NCBI GenBank assembly: GCA_903881425.1
Contig: CAIRTF010000170.1
Coordinates: forward strand, 1 to 45,444
Direction of reading: 5' to 3'
Length of the DNA: 45,444 nucleotides
From: an uncultured Chitinophagaceae bacterium
GTDB lineage: Bacteria; Bacteroidota; Bacteroidia; Chitinophagales; Chitinophagaceae
Shown: piece by piece, positions 311-44,225 of the stretch
Position numbering within the stretch: position 1 is the first letter of the stretch
How the letters are laid out: each line of letters begins with the position of its first letter
Translations under genes and position numbers: made by a program
Notes under the pieces: generated by a model
The model's input: the letters and a program-made list of their open reading frames with translations, nothing else
Databases searched by the model: none
What the model was told of the DNA's origin: nothing

Positions 311-1681
311 CTAATGATGGTGATGGTGTAATTTGCTTGCAAAATCTTCTGCGCTAATTTCTTCTTCTTTTGCTGTAACCAATGTTTCTAATGTTGCAAA
401 CATTTTTTCAGTAGCAATTCTGTGATAACTATCCTCTACAAATTTTTTATCCTGCATCATTCTGTTGGCATAATCATCTACCCATTGTTGATTATCGCCC
501 AAAGCACCTAACTGATTGCCCATGTATTGAAACAATTGTTGTTTCGCAAAATTGCGTATGTCATCCTGGCCAACTTCAATTTTATGATCAGCCGTTAATT
601 TATTGGTGATTAAAGTCCACCTTAATTGATCTTTGAATGAAGGAAATTCTGCTTCCGCTTCTTCCGCTGTTTTGGGTTTTTCGCCACCGGTTTGTAACCA
701 GCGTTTTAAAAATGTTTCGGGAAAATCCATAGTAGTATGATCCAACAAATGATGATAGATTTGATCATGAATTTGATTTCTGCTTTGTGCGGCATAATAA
801 GTTTCGATCTCTTCTTTCAAAGCTGCTTTGAATTCATCTATTGTTTTAATTTCTTTGTTCGGATAAACAGCGATAAAGAATTCTTCATTTAATTCTGCTT
901 TTTCAACATGCCCAACTTTAGTAATGGTCAATTTAAAATATTTATCAGCTGCACCTTTGTCTTCTTTGCTCAATCCTAAATCAGTCAAAATAAAATCTAA
1001 TTCTTTCTCTTCAAAAGCTTTATTCAATTGTAATACAACGCTGTCATCTTTCTTTTTGTCCAATAAATCCTTACGAAATTTTTCAGCAAAATATTTTACC
1101 AATAAAGAATTGTCTTTCACAACACCGCCTTCAATAGTGTTACCATCTTTATCGCACTCAACAAATTGTACATTCAAAACATTGTCATCACCTGTTACAA
1201 TTTCAGGCTCAGTCATTTTACCATGTCGAACTTGTAATCGCTCCAATTCATCATTGATCATTGCTTCTGTAACATTGATCTTAAATTTGGTAACTTTAAT
1301 TTTTGCTGCATCAATTTCAAAATCGGGCTTTAATCCTACTTCAAAAGCAAATACATATTCTTTAGGATTGTTTACATCCAGAGCCGCTGCATCATTATCC
1401 AATGGCAATGGTTGCGCAAAAATTTCTAATTGTTCTTTACCTAAATATTCATTCAAAGATTTTTCAACATTGCGTAAAACTTCATCAGTAAAAACACTTT
1501 GTCCGTACATTTTTTTAACCAAACCTGCGGGCACCATGCCTTTGCGAAAGCCCGGAATATTGGCGGTCTTTGCATATTTCTTTAAGCTTTGTTCAAAGCC
1601 GTTATAATAATCTTCTTTTGTTAGTGTAACGGTCAATTTATCATTCAATAGACCGATGTTCTCTCTGGTAACAGTTGCCAT
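311..1681 (-). CDS. tig: trigger factor (ribosome-associated chaperone/prolyl isomerase)
   Basis: Trigger factor binds the ribosome exit tunnel and shields nascent chains. The 456-residue length fits the family. The N-terminal ribosome-docking signature is visible as GFRKGMVP (residues 44-51), followed by a divergent PPIase-like middle part and a helical C-terminal domain, as in other Bacteroidota versions. The start is an ATG just downstream of tRNA-Leu, and the two may share a transcript. The protein ends in an encoded run of five histidines (KLHHHHH), which is unusual for a chaperone and resembles a natural His-tag. Middle-domain divergence makes isomerase activity uncertain. Confidence 0.92.
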   Translation of the reverse strand: MATVTRENIGLLNDKLTVTLTKEDYYNGFEQSLKKYAKTANIPGFRKGMVPAGLVKKMYGQSVFTDEVLRNVEKSLNEYLGKEQLEIFAQPLPLDNDAAALDVNNPKEYVFAFEVGLKPDFEIDAAKIKVTKFKINVTEAMINDELERLQVRHGKMTEPEIVTGDDNVLNVQFVECDKDGNTIEGGVVKDNSLLVKYFAEKFRKDLLDKKKDDSVVLQLNKAFEEKELDFILTDLGLSKEDKGAADKYFKLTITKVGHVEKAELNEEFFIAVYPNKEIKTIDEFKAALKEEIETYYAAQSRNQIHDQIYHHLLDHTTMDFPETFLKRWLQTGGEKPKTAEEAEAEFPSFKDQLRWTLITNKLTADHKIEVGQDDIRNFAKQQLFQYMGNQLGALGDNQQWVDDYANRMMQDKKFVEDSYHRIATEKMFATLETLVTAKEEEISAEDFASKLHHHHH

Positions 1682-30392: not shown

Positions 30393-31217
30393 TTAATTTA
30401 ATTCCGGATCAATAATATCTTCTTCTGTTGCTCTTTCCACTTCTGCGCCGGCTAATTTTAAATCCTCTTCTCTGTTCTCATTCCATTCTACAATAAAATT
30501 ATTTCTGCCTTCTCCCATAATCAATTTCATGAATTTCTGTTGCACCAATTCTAATAATGAAAGAAATAAAAACAATGCATGAATTCTTCCTTCACACACT
30601 TCGAATATTTTTTCGAACGAAACATTTTTTTCCTGTTGTACAAAATTGGTCATGTAATCTCTGCTGCCCTCCATCGTGTAATTGTAGCGTACAACTGTGT
30701 GCACAGGCTTGTTCTGGCGTTCGTGTACTCTTTGCATCACACGTTCAAATGCCTTCATTAATTTGAACATGGTAATGCTCTGTATCTCTGTGCCTTCACC
30801 ACTTTCTTCACCAATGCTTGATAATTCTCTTTGTAAATTACCGCGTTTCATCATCAGCATTCTGGTGGCTTCCATCTCTGCCATTTTCAAAGAAGCTTCT
30901 TTAAATCTTTTGTATTCCAGAATTTTATTTACCAATTCTTCTCTCGGATCAATTTCATTTCCTTGTGCATCCAATTCTTTTCTTGGCAATAATAATTTTG
31001 CTTTGATGCGCATTAATGTAGAAACAAACAAAATAAACTCACTGCTTAATTCAATATTTAATTTTTCCTGTGTATGAATGAAATCTAAAAAGTCTTTAAT
31101 GATCTTGGTAATAGGAATATTGTAAATATCCAGTTCATCTCTTTCAATGAAAAATAATAAGAGATCAAATGGTCCTTCAAACTGATCTAATTTAATTTGA
31201 TAATTGGTCGTATTCAC
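30393..31217 (-). CDS. scpA: segregation and condensation protein A
   Basis: The 274-residue kleisin bridges the heads of SMC dimers in chromosome condensation. The N-terminal signature is YQIKLDQFEGPFDLLLFFIERDELDIYNIPI. A central helical region includes LSSEFILFVSTLMRIKAKLLLPR, and a C-terminal winged-helix part follows. ScpB is not adjacent. The start is the ATG in MNTTNYQIKL. Confidence 0.93.
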   Translation of the reverse strand: MNTTNYQIKLDQFEGPFDLLLFFIERDELDIYNIPITKIIKDFLDFIHTQEKLNIELSSEFILFVSTLMRIKAKLLLPRKELDAQGNEIDPREELVNKILEYKRFKEASLKMAEMEATRMLMMKRGNLQRELSSIGEESGEGTEIQSITMFKLMKAFERVMQRVHERQNKPVHTVVRYNYTMEGSRDYMTNFVQQEKNVSFEKIFEVCEGRIHALFLFLSLLELVQQKFMKLIMGEGRNNFIVEWNENREEDLKLAGAEVERATEEDIIDPELN

Positions 31218-33493: not shown

Positions 33494-33943
33494 TTATTCC
33501 TTTTCGGCAATAGCACCCGTTTTGATTAGGCTGATCAGGTTCCTCACATTATTCTTGGATTCATCATCTCTAACCAAATGCAATTTTTGTTTTGTGGGTT
33601 TATACAATTTGATGAGCCAAACACCCAGAAAAAAACAAATAATCTGTAATAAAATTATTTTTGTAGTACCTAAGGTTAAAGCAGAATAACTTAATGCAAT
33701 GATCAGAATAGTGGCAATGGAAAATGAAATTGTAATTTGTTTATGAGAAAATCCTTTGTCCAATAAAAGATGATGCAAATGATTTTTTTCTGCATAAAAT
33801 GGGGATCTGCCATGCATGATCCTGATGGTAAATACCCGTAATGTATCCATCAATGGAATTAATAGAATGCCAAAGCCCATAGCAGGCGAGGCCAATACGG
33901 GCAATATATTTGAGCCTTCTGCAGTTTTAATGAAACGAATCAC
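33494..33943 (-). CDS. WecA/MraY-type glycosyl-phosphate transferase, C-terminal part (separate frame)
   Basis: This 149-residue frame continues the protein encoded by 33940-34620. It starts at GTG within a GTGA overlap with the TGA stop of the first half. It supplies the remaining membrane helices and the family's cytoplasmic histidine motif HGRSPFYAEKNHLHHLLLDKG. The residues IRFIKTAEGSN...PLMDTLRVFTIRI align without a gap to where an intact homologue would go on. It could be made by stop-start reinitiation, by a -1 frameshift, or not at all if the gene is broken. Confidence 0.7.
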   Translation of the reverse strand: MIRFIKTAEGSNILPVLASPAMGFGILLIPLMDTLRVFTIRIMHGRSPFYAEKNHLHHLLLDKGFSHKQITISFSIATILIIALSYSALTLGTTKIILLQIICFFLGVWLIKLYKPTKQKLHLVRDDESKNNVRNLISLIKTGAIAEKE

Positions 33944-34620
33944 AGAATAGCATTTACTGTACCAATTAACATAGAGCCTGCATCTCCCATGAAAATTTTT
34001 GCAGGATTGAAGTTATATATTAAGAAAGCCAATAAACTTGCCGACAAACAAAATCCTAAACAAGAAAAAAACATATCTCCATTCATATAAAAGAAAATGG
34101 CAAATGCAGAAGAGGTAATAATTCCTAAGCAGCTGGCTAATCCATCAATACCATCAATTAAATTATACGCATTCATTACTACAACAACAGTGAAAAGTGT
34201 TAATGCATAACTAAAACTAGAGTCAAGTTTATTAAAGTATAAAAAACCATGTGCGTCATCAATTAATAGTTGTCCTTTCCAAATTAAAAGTCCTGCTATG
34301 ATTAATTGGCCGAGAAATTTTTTCATCGGAGTTAAAATCAAAACATCATCTTTCACGCCTAAAAAGAAAACAATTAATAAAGCTGCAATGATATATTGAA
34401 AAGAAGAAGATACTCCTGATGTGTTTGCTGCTATTAATAATCCTAAAATAAGTCCTGAAAAAATGCCAACACCACCCAAAGAAGAAATGGGATGTGAATG
34501 TAATTTTCTTTCATCGGGCATATCATACATATTTTTTTGATCTGCTATGTACATGATGATGGGAATAGCATAAAAAGTAATGATAAAAGAAAAAATGCCA
34601 CCTAATAAAATGTTTTCCAT
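33940..34620 (-). CDS. WecA/MraY-type undecaprenyl-phosphate sugar-1-phosphate transferase, N-terminal part
   Basis: This 226-residue frame is the first two thirds of a polytopic transferase. Such enzymes move GlcNAc-1-P, or a related sugar phosphate, onto undecaprenyl phosphate for O-antigen, teichoic-acid-like or exopolysaccharide synthesis. Motifs are KLHSHPISSLGGVG, catalytic D91-D92 in GVKDD, NLIDGIDGLA (153-162) and the Mg-binding MGDAGS (211-216). It stops right after GTVNAIL, where homologues continue into another helix and the His motif. That part lies in the next frame. The short product alone would lack the HLHH site. Confidence 0.78.
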   Translation of the reverse strand: MENILLGGIFSFIITFYAIPIIMYIADQKNMYDMPDERKLHSHPISSLGGVGIFSGLILGLLIAANTSGVSSSFQYIIAALLIVFFLGVKDDVLILTPMKKFLGQLIIAGLLIWKGQLLIDDAHGFLYFNKLDSSFSYALTLFTVVVVMNAYNLIDGIDGLASCLGIITSSAFAIFFYMNGDMFFSCLGFCLSASLLAFLIYNFNPAKIFMGDAGSMLIGTVNAIL

Positions 34621-34851: not shown

Positions 34852-35694
34852 ATGAAGTCAACTGATCAATTAAAAAACATTGCCTCACAGGTGCGAAGAG
34901 ATATTGTAAGAATGGTTCATGCTGTGCAAAGCGGTCATCCGGGCGGTTCATTGGGGTGTGCTGATTTTCTTACAGCTTTATATTTTAATGTAATGGAACA
35001 TAAACCGGAATTTTTAATGGATGGAAGAAATGAAGATGTTTTCTTTTTATCCAACGGACATATTTCTCCTGTTTTTTATTCTGTTCTATCAAGGGCAGGT
35101 TATTTTGATGTAAAAGAGTTGGCTACTTTTCGTAAAATCAATTCTCGTTTGCAAGGTCATCCAACAACGCATGAACATTTACCCGGAGTGCGTATGGCAA
35201 GTGGTTCTTTAGGGCAGGGTATGAGTGTTGCTATTGGTGCTGCATTGGCAAAAAAATTAAATGGCGATAAACATCTCGTCTTTTCATTGCATGGTGATGG
35301 TGAATTAGATGAAGGCCAAAATTGGGAAGCTATCATGTTTGCAGCACATCATAAAGTGGATAATTTAATTTCTACCATTGATTACAATGGTCAACAAATT
35401 GATGGTACTACCAAAGATGTTATGGGATTGGAAAATTTAAAAGATAAATTCATTGCATTTAACTGGACAGTAATGGAAATGAATGGTAATGATATGGATG
35501 ATGTGATTGCCGGATTGGCAAAAGCCAAATCATTAACCGGAAAAGGGAAACCGGTTTGTATTTTGATGAAAACCATTATGGGTAAAGGAGTAGATTTTAT
35601 GGAAGGACATCACGAATGGCATGGCATTGCACCAAATGATGAACAATTGGCAAAAGCATTAGCACAATTACCCGAAACATTAGGTGATTACTAA
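34852..35694 (+). CDS. transketolase, N-terminal (ThDP-binding) subunit
   Basis: The 280-residue protein covers only the first transketolase domain, as in split transketolases. Motifs are SGHPGGSLGCADFLTALYF, ASGSLGQGMSVAIGAAL and the ThDP motif HGDGELDEGQNWEA ... DYNGQQIDG. The partner subunit, which carries the pyrimidine-binding and C-terminal domains, is not next to it; the following gene is a minus-strand permease. Its partner must be encoded elsewhere or the enzyme is inactive. It would act in the pentose phosphate pathway. Confidence 0.9.
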   Translation: MKSTDQLKNIASQVRRDIVRMVHAVQSGHPGGSLGCADFLTALYFNVMEHKPEFLMDGRNEDVFFLSNGHISPVFYSVLSRAGYFDVKELATFRKINSRLQGHPTTHEHLPGVRMASGSLGQGMSVAIGAALAKKLNGDKHLVFSLHGDGELDEGQNWEAIMFAAHHKVDNLISTIDYNGQQIDGTTKDVMGLENLKDKFIAFNWTVMEMNGNDMDDVIAGLAKAKSLTGKGKPVCILMKTIMGKGVDFMEGHHEWHGIAPNDEQLAKALAQLPETLGDY

Positions 35695-42713: not shown

Positions 42714-43904
42714 CTACTTCTTCAGTTTACCTTCTTCGTCAGCCAAATGTTGTAAATAGTAGCAATAAATCAATTGCCCTTTACGAATACTTGATAATCT
42801 AAAAAATTCATTAGAAGCATGCCATCTTTCATCAGCTTGTTCGAACCCCAATGAATAGGGATAAATAACCAATGTTTCTTTAATGTCAATCAATGCTCCG
42901 GTAGAAAAACCTGCAGCAATTTGCAATGGTTGCTTTCCATAAAATTTGAATAACGCATCCGATACATAATTAAATGCTTTAGTGCCTGTTGGAAATTTTA
43001 ATGGTGCTGCTCCACCTTTGGTAAATTTATAAGTAACTGTAGCCCCAGCTGGGCAATTTTTGTTGATGTGCTTTACAATTAAATCAATAATTTCGGAACC
43101 GTTTTGGTTGTTTACCAATCTGCAAGTAATTCTTGCCATAGCACTACCCGGAATAATATTTGCATGTCCCTCAGGTGCAGTATAACCGCTTTGCATACCA
43201 ATTATCTCAAGCGTAGGACGATACCAAACTCGTTCAAGTGGTGAAAAAGTAGTGTCGCCTGTTTCGGTTGTTGTACCTAACAATTTCATATCATCAGATT
43301 TATCATAAGGCACTTTTTTTATCATTTCTTTTTCTTCTAAAGTGGTTGGTACTACTTTATCATAAAACCCCTCCACTGCTACATTTCCCTCTTTGGTATA
43401 AAACGAAGCTATGATTTGCGATAAAGCCACAGCAGCATTGGGGGTTTTTCCACCAAATTGTCCCGAATGTGCATCAGTATTGGCTGTTTTTACATTAAAC
43501 TCCAGAATTGCCGACCCTCTTAAGCCCATTAAAATTGATGGCGTAGTTTCACTGTATTGGCTACCATCGGCGTTTAATGCAAAATCTGCTTTTAATAACT
43601 CTTTATTCTTGTTAAGAAAGTTTTTAAAATTCGGACTACCTTTTTCTTCTTCACCATCAAAGATAAATTTTACGTTCACAGGCAATTTACCGTCTGTGCG
43701 CAACATTGCCTCAACTGCCCAAATAGTTAGCATAACACCGCTTTTATCATCACTTGCCCCACGTCCAAATATTTTGCCGTCTATTACTTTTGGTGAAAAA
43801 GGTGGGTTATCCCATTCCGATTCCTTTACAGGTTGTACATCATAATGAGCATAGATTAATACGGTCGGTTTGCCTGGTGCTTTGTCCCAGCTTCCGTACA
43901 CCAT
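42714..43904 (-). CDS. M20 peptidase, catalytic part downstream of the stop
   Basis: The 396-residue remnant starts at an internal ATG (MVYGSWDKAPGK). It holds all metal and catalytic residues: H/D in AHYDVQPV, D in GRGASDDKSG, the E-E pair in FIFDGEEEKGSP, D in DFALNADGSQ and the late H in ADERWHASNEF. Family members are carnosinase-like or related dipeptidases. If translated alone it would lack the signal peptide and be cytoplasmic. Confidence 0.7.
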   Translation of the reverse strand: MVYGSWDKAPGKPTVLIYAHYDVQPVKESEWDNPPFSPKVIDGKIFGRGASDDKSGVMLTIWAVEAMLRTDGKLPVNVKFIFDGEEEKGSPNFKNFLNKNKELLKADFALNADGSQYSETTPSILMGLRGSAILEFNVKTANTDAHSGQFGGKTPNAAVALSQIIASFYTKEGNVAVEGFYDKVVPTTLEEKEMIKKVPYDKSDDMKLLGTTTETGDTTFSPLERVWYRPTLEIIGMQSGYTAPEGHANIIPGSAMARITCRLVNNQNGSEIIDLIVKHINKNCPAGATVTYKFTKGGAAPLKFPTGTKAFNYVSDALFKFYGKQPLQIAAGFSTGALIDIKETLVIYPYSLGFEQADERWHASNEFFRLSSIRKGQLIYCYYLQHLADEEGKLKK

Positions 43905-43928
43905 AGAATTTCCGTCTGTTGGTATTGT

Positions 43929-44225
43929 TTAGGCTGTTGTCATTCCAACAGCTTTTAATTTATTCACAATCCATCCAGCAGCTTTGTCAATATCGACTTT
44001 GTGCGATTGAATATAAGATATGCTTGGAATAGATACCAACTCCATAAATTCTTTTAAGTGAGCATCATTATTTTCGTCAATATATTTTTCGTAAGATATC
44101 AAAGACGATTTTACTTGCTCCTTTCTTGAAGTTTTGGAATTAGCATTCTGAGCTGTTGAATTTGTGCTAGCCAATAGATTCAAGCTAACAAAGATTGACA
44201 GGGCTAAGGATTTTGAAAATGTCAT
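43929..44225 (-). CDS. M20 peptidase N-terminal fragment with signal peptide
   Basis: The 98-residue fragment has a signal peptide and the M20 lead-in (EKYIDENNDAHLKEFMELVSIPSIS, AAGWIVNKLKAVGM). It ends at TAA just before the first catalytic motif and by itself has no active site. Confidence 0.6.
   Translation of the reverse strand: MTFSKSLALSIFVSLNLLASTNSTAQNANSKTSRKEQVKSSLISYEKYIDENNDAHLKEFMELVSIPSISYIQSHKVDIDKAAGWIVNKLKAVGMTTA

Follow-up and report, generated by a model that had tools for sequence, protein, structure and literature searches.

How is the WecA/MraY-like transferase gene of this uncultured Chitinophagaceae bacterium expressed, when its two parts lie in different reading frames that meet in a stop-start overlap? 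The layout could reflect two coupled polypeptides, a recoded gene or a frame broken by a one-base change. The locus was analysed within a stretch of 45,444 nucleotides (the window), together with other contigs of the same genome and the genomes of relatives. The features of the locus are as follows.

33940..34620, minus strand: N-terminal frame of a WecA/MraY-type polyprenyl-phosphate sugar-1-phosphate transferase, 226 aa (PF00953; tblastn against relatives)
33494..33943, minus strand: C-terminal frame of the same transferase, in a different frame, 149 aa (81% identity to the C part of G073; TIGR02380)
33940..33943, minus strand: GTGA overlap, in which TGA closes the first frame and GTG opens the second; corresponds to an internal valine codon of the relatives

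A transferase gene in two frames

The first frame, read from 34620 to 33940, begins with ATG and reaches its TGA after the C-terminal end ...FMGDAGSMLIGTVNAIL, while the second runs from 33943 to 33494 and opens with the GTG that overlaps this stop. The KDD (DD motif), NxxNLIDGIDGLA and FMGDAGS motifs are contained in the first frame, and DTLRVF(TIRI) and NHLHH in the second. The N half matches PF00953 (Glycos_transf_4) with 124.6 bits (4.7e-36; cut-off, 27), and in a search of the whole genome with the same profile the split gene scores 126.3 bits. Positions 5-220 of the WecA model TIGR02380 are matched by the N half (106 bits) and positions 238-335 by the C half (45.4 bits), both under its cut-off of 326.05. 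Because the N-half score lies under this cut-off, WecA itself is not claimed for the split gene.

In tblastn searches, the matches of relatives to the N half end exactly where those to the C half begin. This back-to-back arrangement fixes the junction exactly and excludes the chance adjacency of two genes. Judged by sequence, the two halves together are one predicted WecA/MraY-type transferase of the PNPT superfamily. The split gene shares with WecA-like PNPT enzymes the same motifs in the same order, its halves matching consecutive parts of TIGR02380, but it is written in two frames where those enzymes have one. In the relatives, the catalytic Asp motifs and the loop-E His motif are found in one polypeptide; the split gene is a PNPT family member by descent, whose product as written does not hold the Asp and His motifs together. 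PNPT-type enzymes transfer a sugar phosphate onto undecaprenyl phosphate, the start of surface-glycan synthesis, and family membership suggests that the gene would function as a WecA-like transferase.

The original prediction was accurate in its description of the locus: the coordinates and -1 relation of the two frames with their GTGA overlap at 33943-33940 and the division of the DD, DGIDGLA and MGDAGS motifs from HLHH were as claimed, and its statements that homology continues over the junction and that a classical slippery heptamer is absent there were borne out by the abutting tblastn matches and by direct reading of the sequence, respectively.

The junction in relatives and in the protein fold

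The N half was searched against 195 genomes of the family, 193 of which gave a match at an E value of <=0.001, MraY paralogues included. In G073, the only other genome of the genus covered, the gene is unsplit and forms one intact frame of 385 aa, with which the N half shares 77% identity and the C half 81%. Likewise, both halves lie back to back in one frame at all 29 nearest family loci (L004 to L032). A scan of named genomes covered 80 loci, including two repeats of the first set (L033 = L004 and L034 = L011). Both halves were located in 65 of these, in one frame each time (65/65), and a C-half match was not found in the remaining 15 of 80. The same split, which the original prediction had proposed looking for in relatives, is thus absent from G073 and from the 29 nearest loci, although a coupled split gene would be expected to have its split conserved there (0/29).

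The codon directly after residue 226 encodes valine in 26 of 29 relatives (GTA in 12, GTT in 8, GTG in 4, GTC in 2), the other three having alanine (2) or threonine (1). Since so many relatives encode valine at this position, the GTG of the second frame is a pre-existing internal valine codon rather than an evolved start. Because the close relatives examined lack the split, its most likely cause is a recent accident or an error of assembly rather than a new mechanism. We therefore favor a private, accidental one-base frame break, either a recent pseudogene or a consensus error, with a probability of roughly 0.93. What speaks against this reading is that the GTG at the start of the second frame overlaps the TGA precisely, as in genuinely coupled genes.

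An AlphaFold2 model of the intact G073 protein was computed from 28 sequences (mean pLDDT, 88.7; pTM, 0.86). When compared to the PDB, all 36 matches with an E value of <=0.001 are MraY/PNPT or DPAGT1 structures, the best being 6oyh_D (8.2e-11); the MraY/DPAGT1 fold is thus seen for the intact G073 protein and not for the split copy. Residues 212-236 of the model form one helix, which by the fold match would span the membrane, and the break (226/227) falls inside it. Residues invariant in the alignment of the 28 sequences include D91, D92, N153, D156 and D213 on the N side of the break and P256, D259, R267, H281, H283 and H284 on the C side, so that each half is without part of the site. In MraY, whose fold (as modeled for the intact G073 protein) and catalytic motifs are common to the family of the split gene, a cleft of helices 3, 4, 5, 8 and 9b is proposed as the active site, and an HHH motif in the fifth cytoplasmic loop points at the Mg site, as described in passages of PMC5039524. 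With the break inside a predicted transmembrane helix and the active-site residues parted, neither half should work alone, and both are expected to be inactive by themselves.

The alternative that survives best, although we hold it to be very improbable, is a natural split enzyme in which termination and reinitiation at GTGA yield two coupled polypeptides that assemble into a working transferase in the membrane. The GTGA overlap is present, constraint is seen in both halves, and coupled frame transitions occur in other prokaryotic gene families, as sections of PMC3711429 report. However, none of the relatives for which both halves were located has the split, the GTG is the relatives' ordinary valine codon, the cut falls within a helix predicted to span the membrane rather than in a loop, and the assembly carries further broken genes. 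A species-specific two-subunit transferase, its halves coupled through GTGA, divided midway along a transmembrane helix, and putatively translated and active after assembly in the membrane, is more doubtful still.

Recoding, whereby a -1 frameshift near the TGA would fuse both frames into a full-length protein, is even harder to credit. The frame relation (-1) is of a suitable kind, but no slippery heptamer of the form X XXY YYZ is visible at the junction, and by codon reading a P-site tRNA on CTG would re-pair poorly after a -1 slip. In addition, a slippery site conserved in relatives, as programmed -1 frameshifting would have, was not found: the junction codons vary freely among the 29 relatives, which argues that there is no conserved shift site, and none of the relatives with both halves found changes frame there. 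Least credible of all is a phase-variable switch, in which expression would be toggled by a slippage-prone tract; phase variation is known to affect surface-glycan genes, but there is no homopolymer of at least four bases within 10 bases either side of the GTGA overlap, and a repeat tract is not visible at the break.

Age and origin of the break

Among the three options of the original prediction, the one-base break is the one supported, and coupled polypeptides and recoding are strongly disfavored by the relatives, the valine codon, the position in the helix and other lesions in the assembly. The accidental break would have befallen an ordinary single-frame WecA-like gene, its frame lost in one assembly through a one-base change, be it a recent mutation that abolished function or an error in the consensus of the draft.

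Compared to G073 (Nei-Gojobori), the estimated dN/dS values of the N and C halves are 0.098 and 0.065, respectively, against 0.050 to 0.102 for eight neighboring genes; these estimates are rough because dS exceeds 1 and is saturated. Both halves look as constrained as their neighbors and give no sign of long decay; the break would therefore be of recent date or an artefact. On the other side, the low C-half value would also be expected of a functional second half. Between a consensus error and a recent loss-of-function mutation, we lean slightly to the error, although a typical homopolymer miscount is not an obvious cause because no homopolymer lies at the break.

Comparable cases are the GeneTack singletons of Antonov et al. 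(2013; PMC3711429), which, as sections of that paper describe them, are likewise frame transitions in conserved genes that relatives do not share, but come from complete genomes, whereas the split gene comes from a draft of 217 contigs. In the same sections, the authors expect singleton frameshifts validated by BLASTp to be sequencing errors and not genuine indels. The split gene is a common gene, and its case is an ordinary one.

The window and other contigs of the same genome hold further broken genes:

42714..44225, minus strand: M20 dipeptidase, the second broken gene of the window, with an in-frame TAA at 43929-43931
L162:11804-14566, plus strand: M16 peptidase, interrupted at L162:12098-12100 by an in-frame stop
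L170:6039-6697, minus strand: broken OmpR-type response regulator, whose frame changes near L170:6200

A comparison of frames between the syntenic parts of the window and G073 flagged 13 of 63 matched ORFs. By their coordinates, 11 of these are antisense to window genes; one is a 433-aa frame, presumably fabF-like, whose stop precedes the ATG of the gene in the window; and the last is the split transferase. The M20 dipeptidase scores 436.3 bits over positions 4-456 of the 458 of its profile, interrupted by its single in-frame TAA, and an unbroken full-length relative is present on another contig of the genome (C146). It had been considered as a second frameshift and was rejected as such because the sequence has an in-frame TAA.

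A codon-score scan for lesions over 298,566 bases (the window and 29 stretches of the genome) returned 114 candidate pairs, most of which were by eye antisense shadows or normal operon neighbors. Five pairs from the sampled contigs were taken to Pfam. Two of them each proved to be one broken gene, namely the M16 peptidase and the response regulator, whose receiver and DNA-binding parts lie in different frames; one is a natural nucleotidyltransferase/HepT-like gene pair; and L180:10026-10412 and L155:8531-9759 were also among the five. The lesion counts are a lower bound only, as the sensitivity of the scan is unmeasured. The G073 assembly has a split of its own, in an scpA-like gene on L151 (G073:C545) that is divided over two ORFs. 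Its counterpart in the window (30393-31217), which we take to be scpA, is one whole 274-aa frame. With lesions in both assemblies, such accidents are not rare in these drafts.

Consequences and dispensability of the gene

If the break is real, the first frame would yield a 226-aa fragment without activity and the second probably little product or none, and the lineage may have been left without one of its routes into surface glycans linked to undecaprenyl. The split gene is the second PF00953 member of the genome; the other, an unbroken 446-aa frame on contig C41, is presumably MraY. The unrelated initiating family PF02397 has one strong member, on contig C201 (193 bits). With these two genes in place, loss of the split gene could be tolerated.

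Among the matches listed for the N half, three further short frames occur, in G043, G129 and G003. From their coordinates, those of G043 and G129 sit at contig ends. The orthologous frame in G003 (open frame, 294 aa) runs after ...DTLRVFSI into IS4-family transposase-like sequence, a fragment that matches NF033592 with an E value of 7.3e-7, under the cut-off of the model.

L168 (G003:C15:115000-116959), about 1660-1960: independent interruption of the WecA-like gene, in G003, by IS4-family-like sequence, near a contig end

The G003 frame was considered as a second case of the split and rejected, since transposase sequence makes it a different event. This interruption suggests that the WecA-like gene can be lost within the family, where it may be dispensable. 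The N half also matched 33 of 50,697 phage records, each at <60% identity, and a search of viral contigs with the N half gave no match. More generally, the locus calls for caution, as a frame lost beside a valine codon can by chance yield a neat stop-start overlap.

Three other genes of the window may be recorded. Positions 34852-35694 (plus strand) encode a transketolase N-terminal half of 280 aa. The gene that follows it runs in the opposite direction, the C-terminal half does not adjoin it, and the G073 counterpart also has 280 aa. At the contig end, 44471-45343 (minus strand) encodes a protein whose C-terminal domain is of the HNH type (PF13395) and whose long N-terminal part lacks a Pfam match. 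The first protein of the window (311-1681, minus strand), which we assume to be trigger-factor-like, has a run of five histidines at its end.
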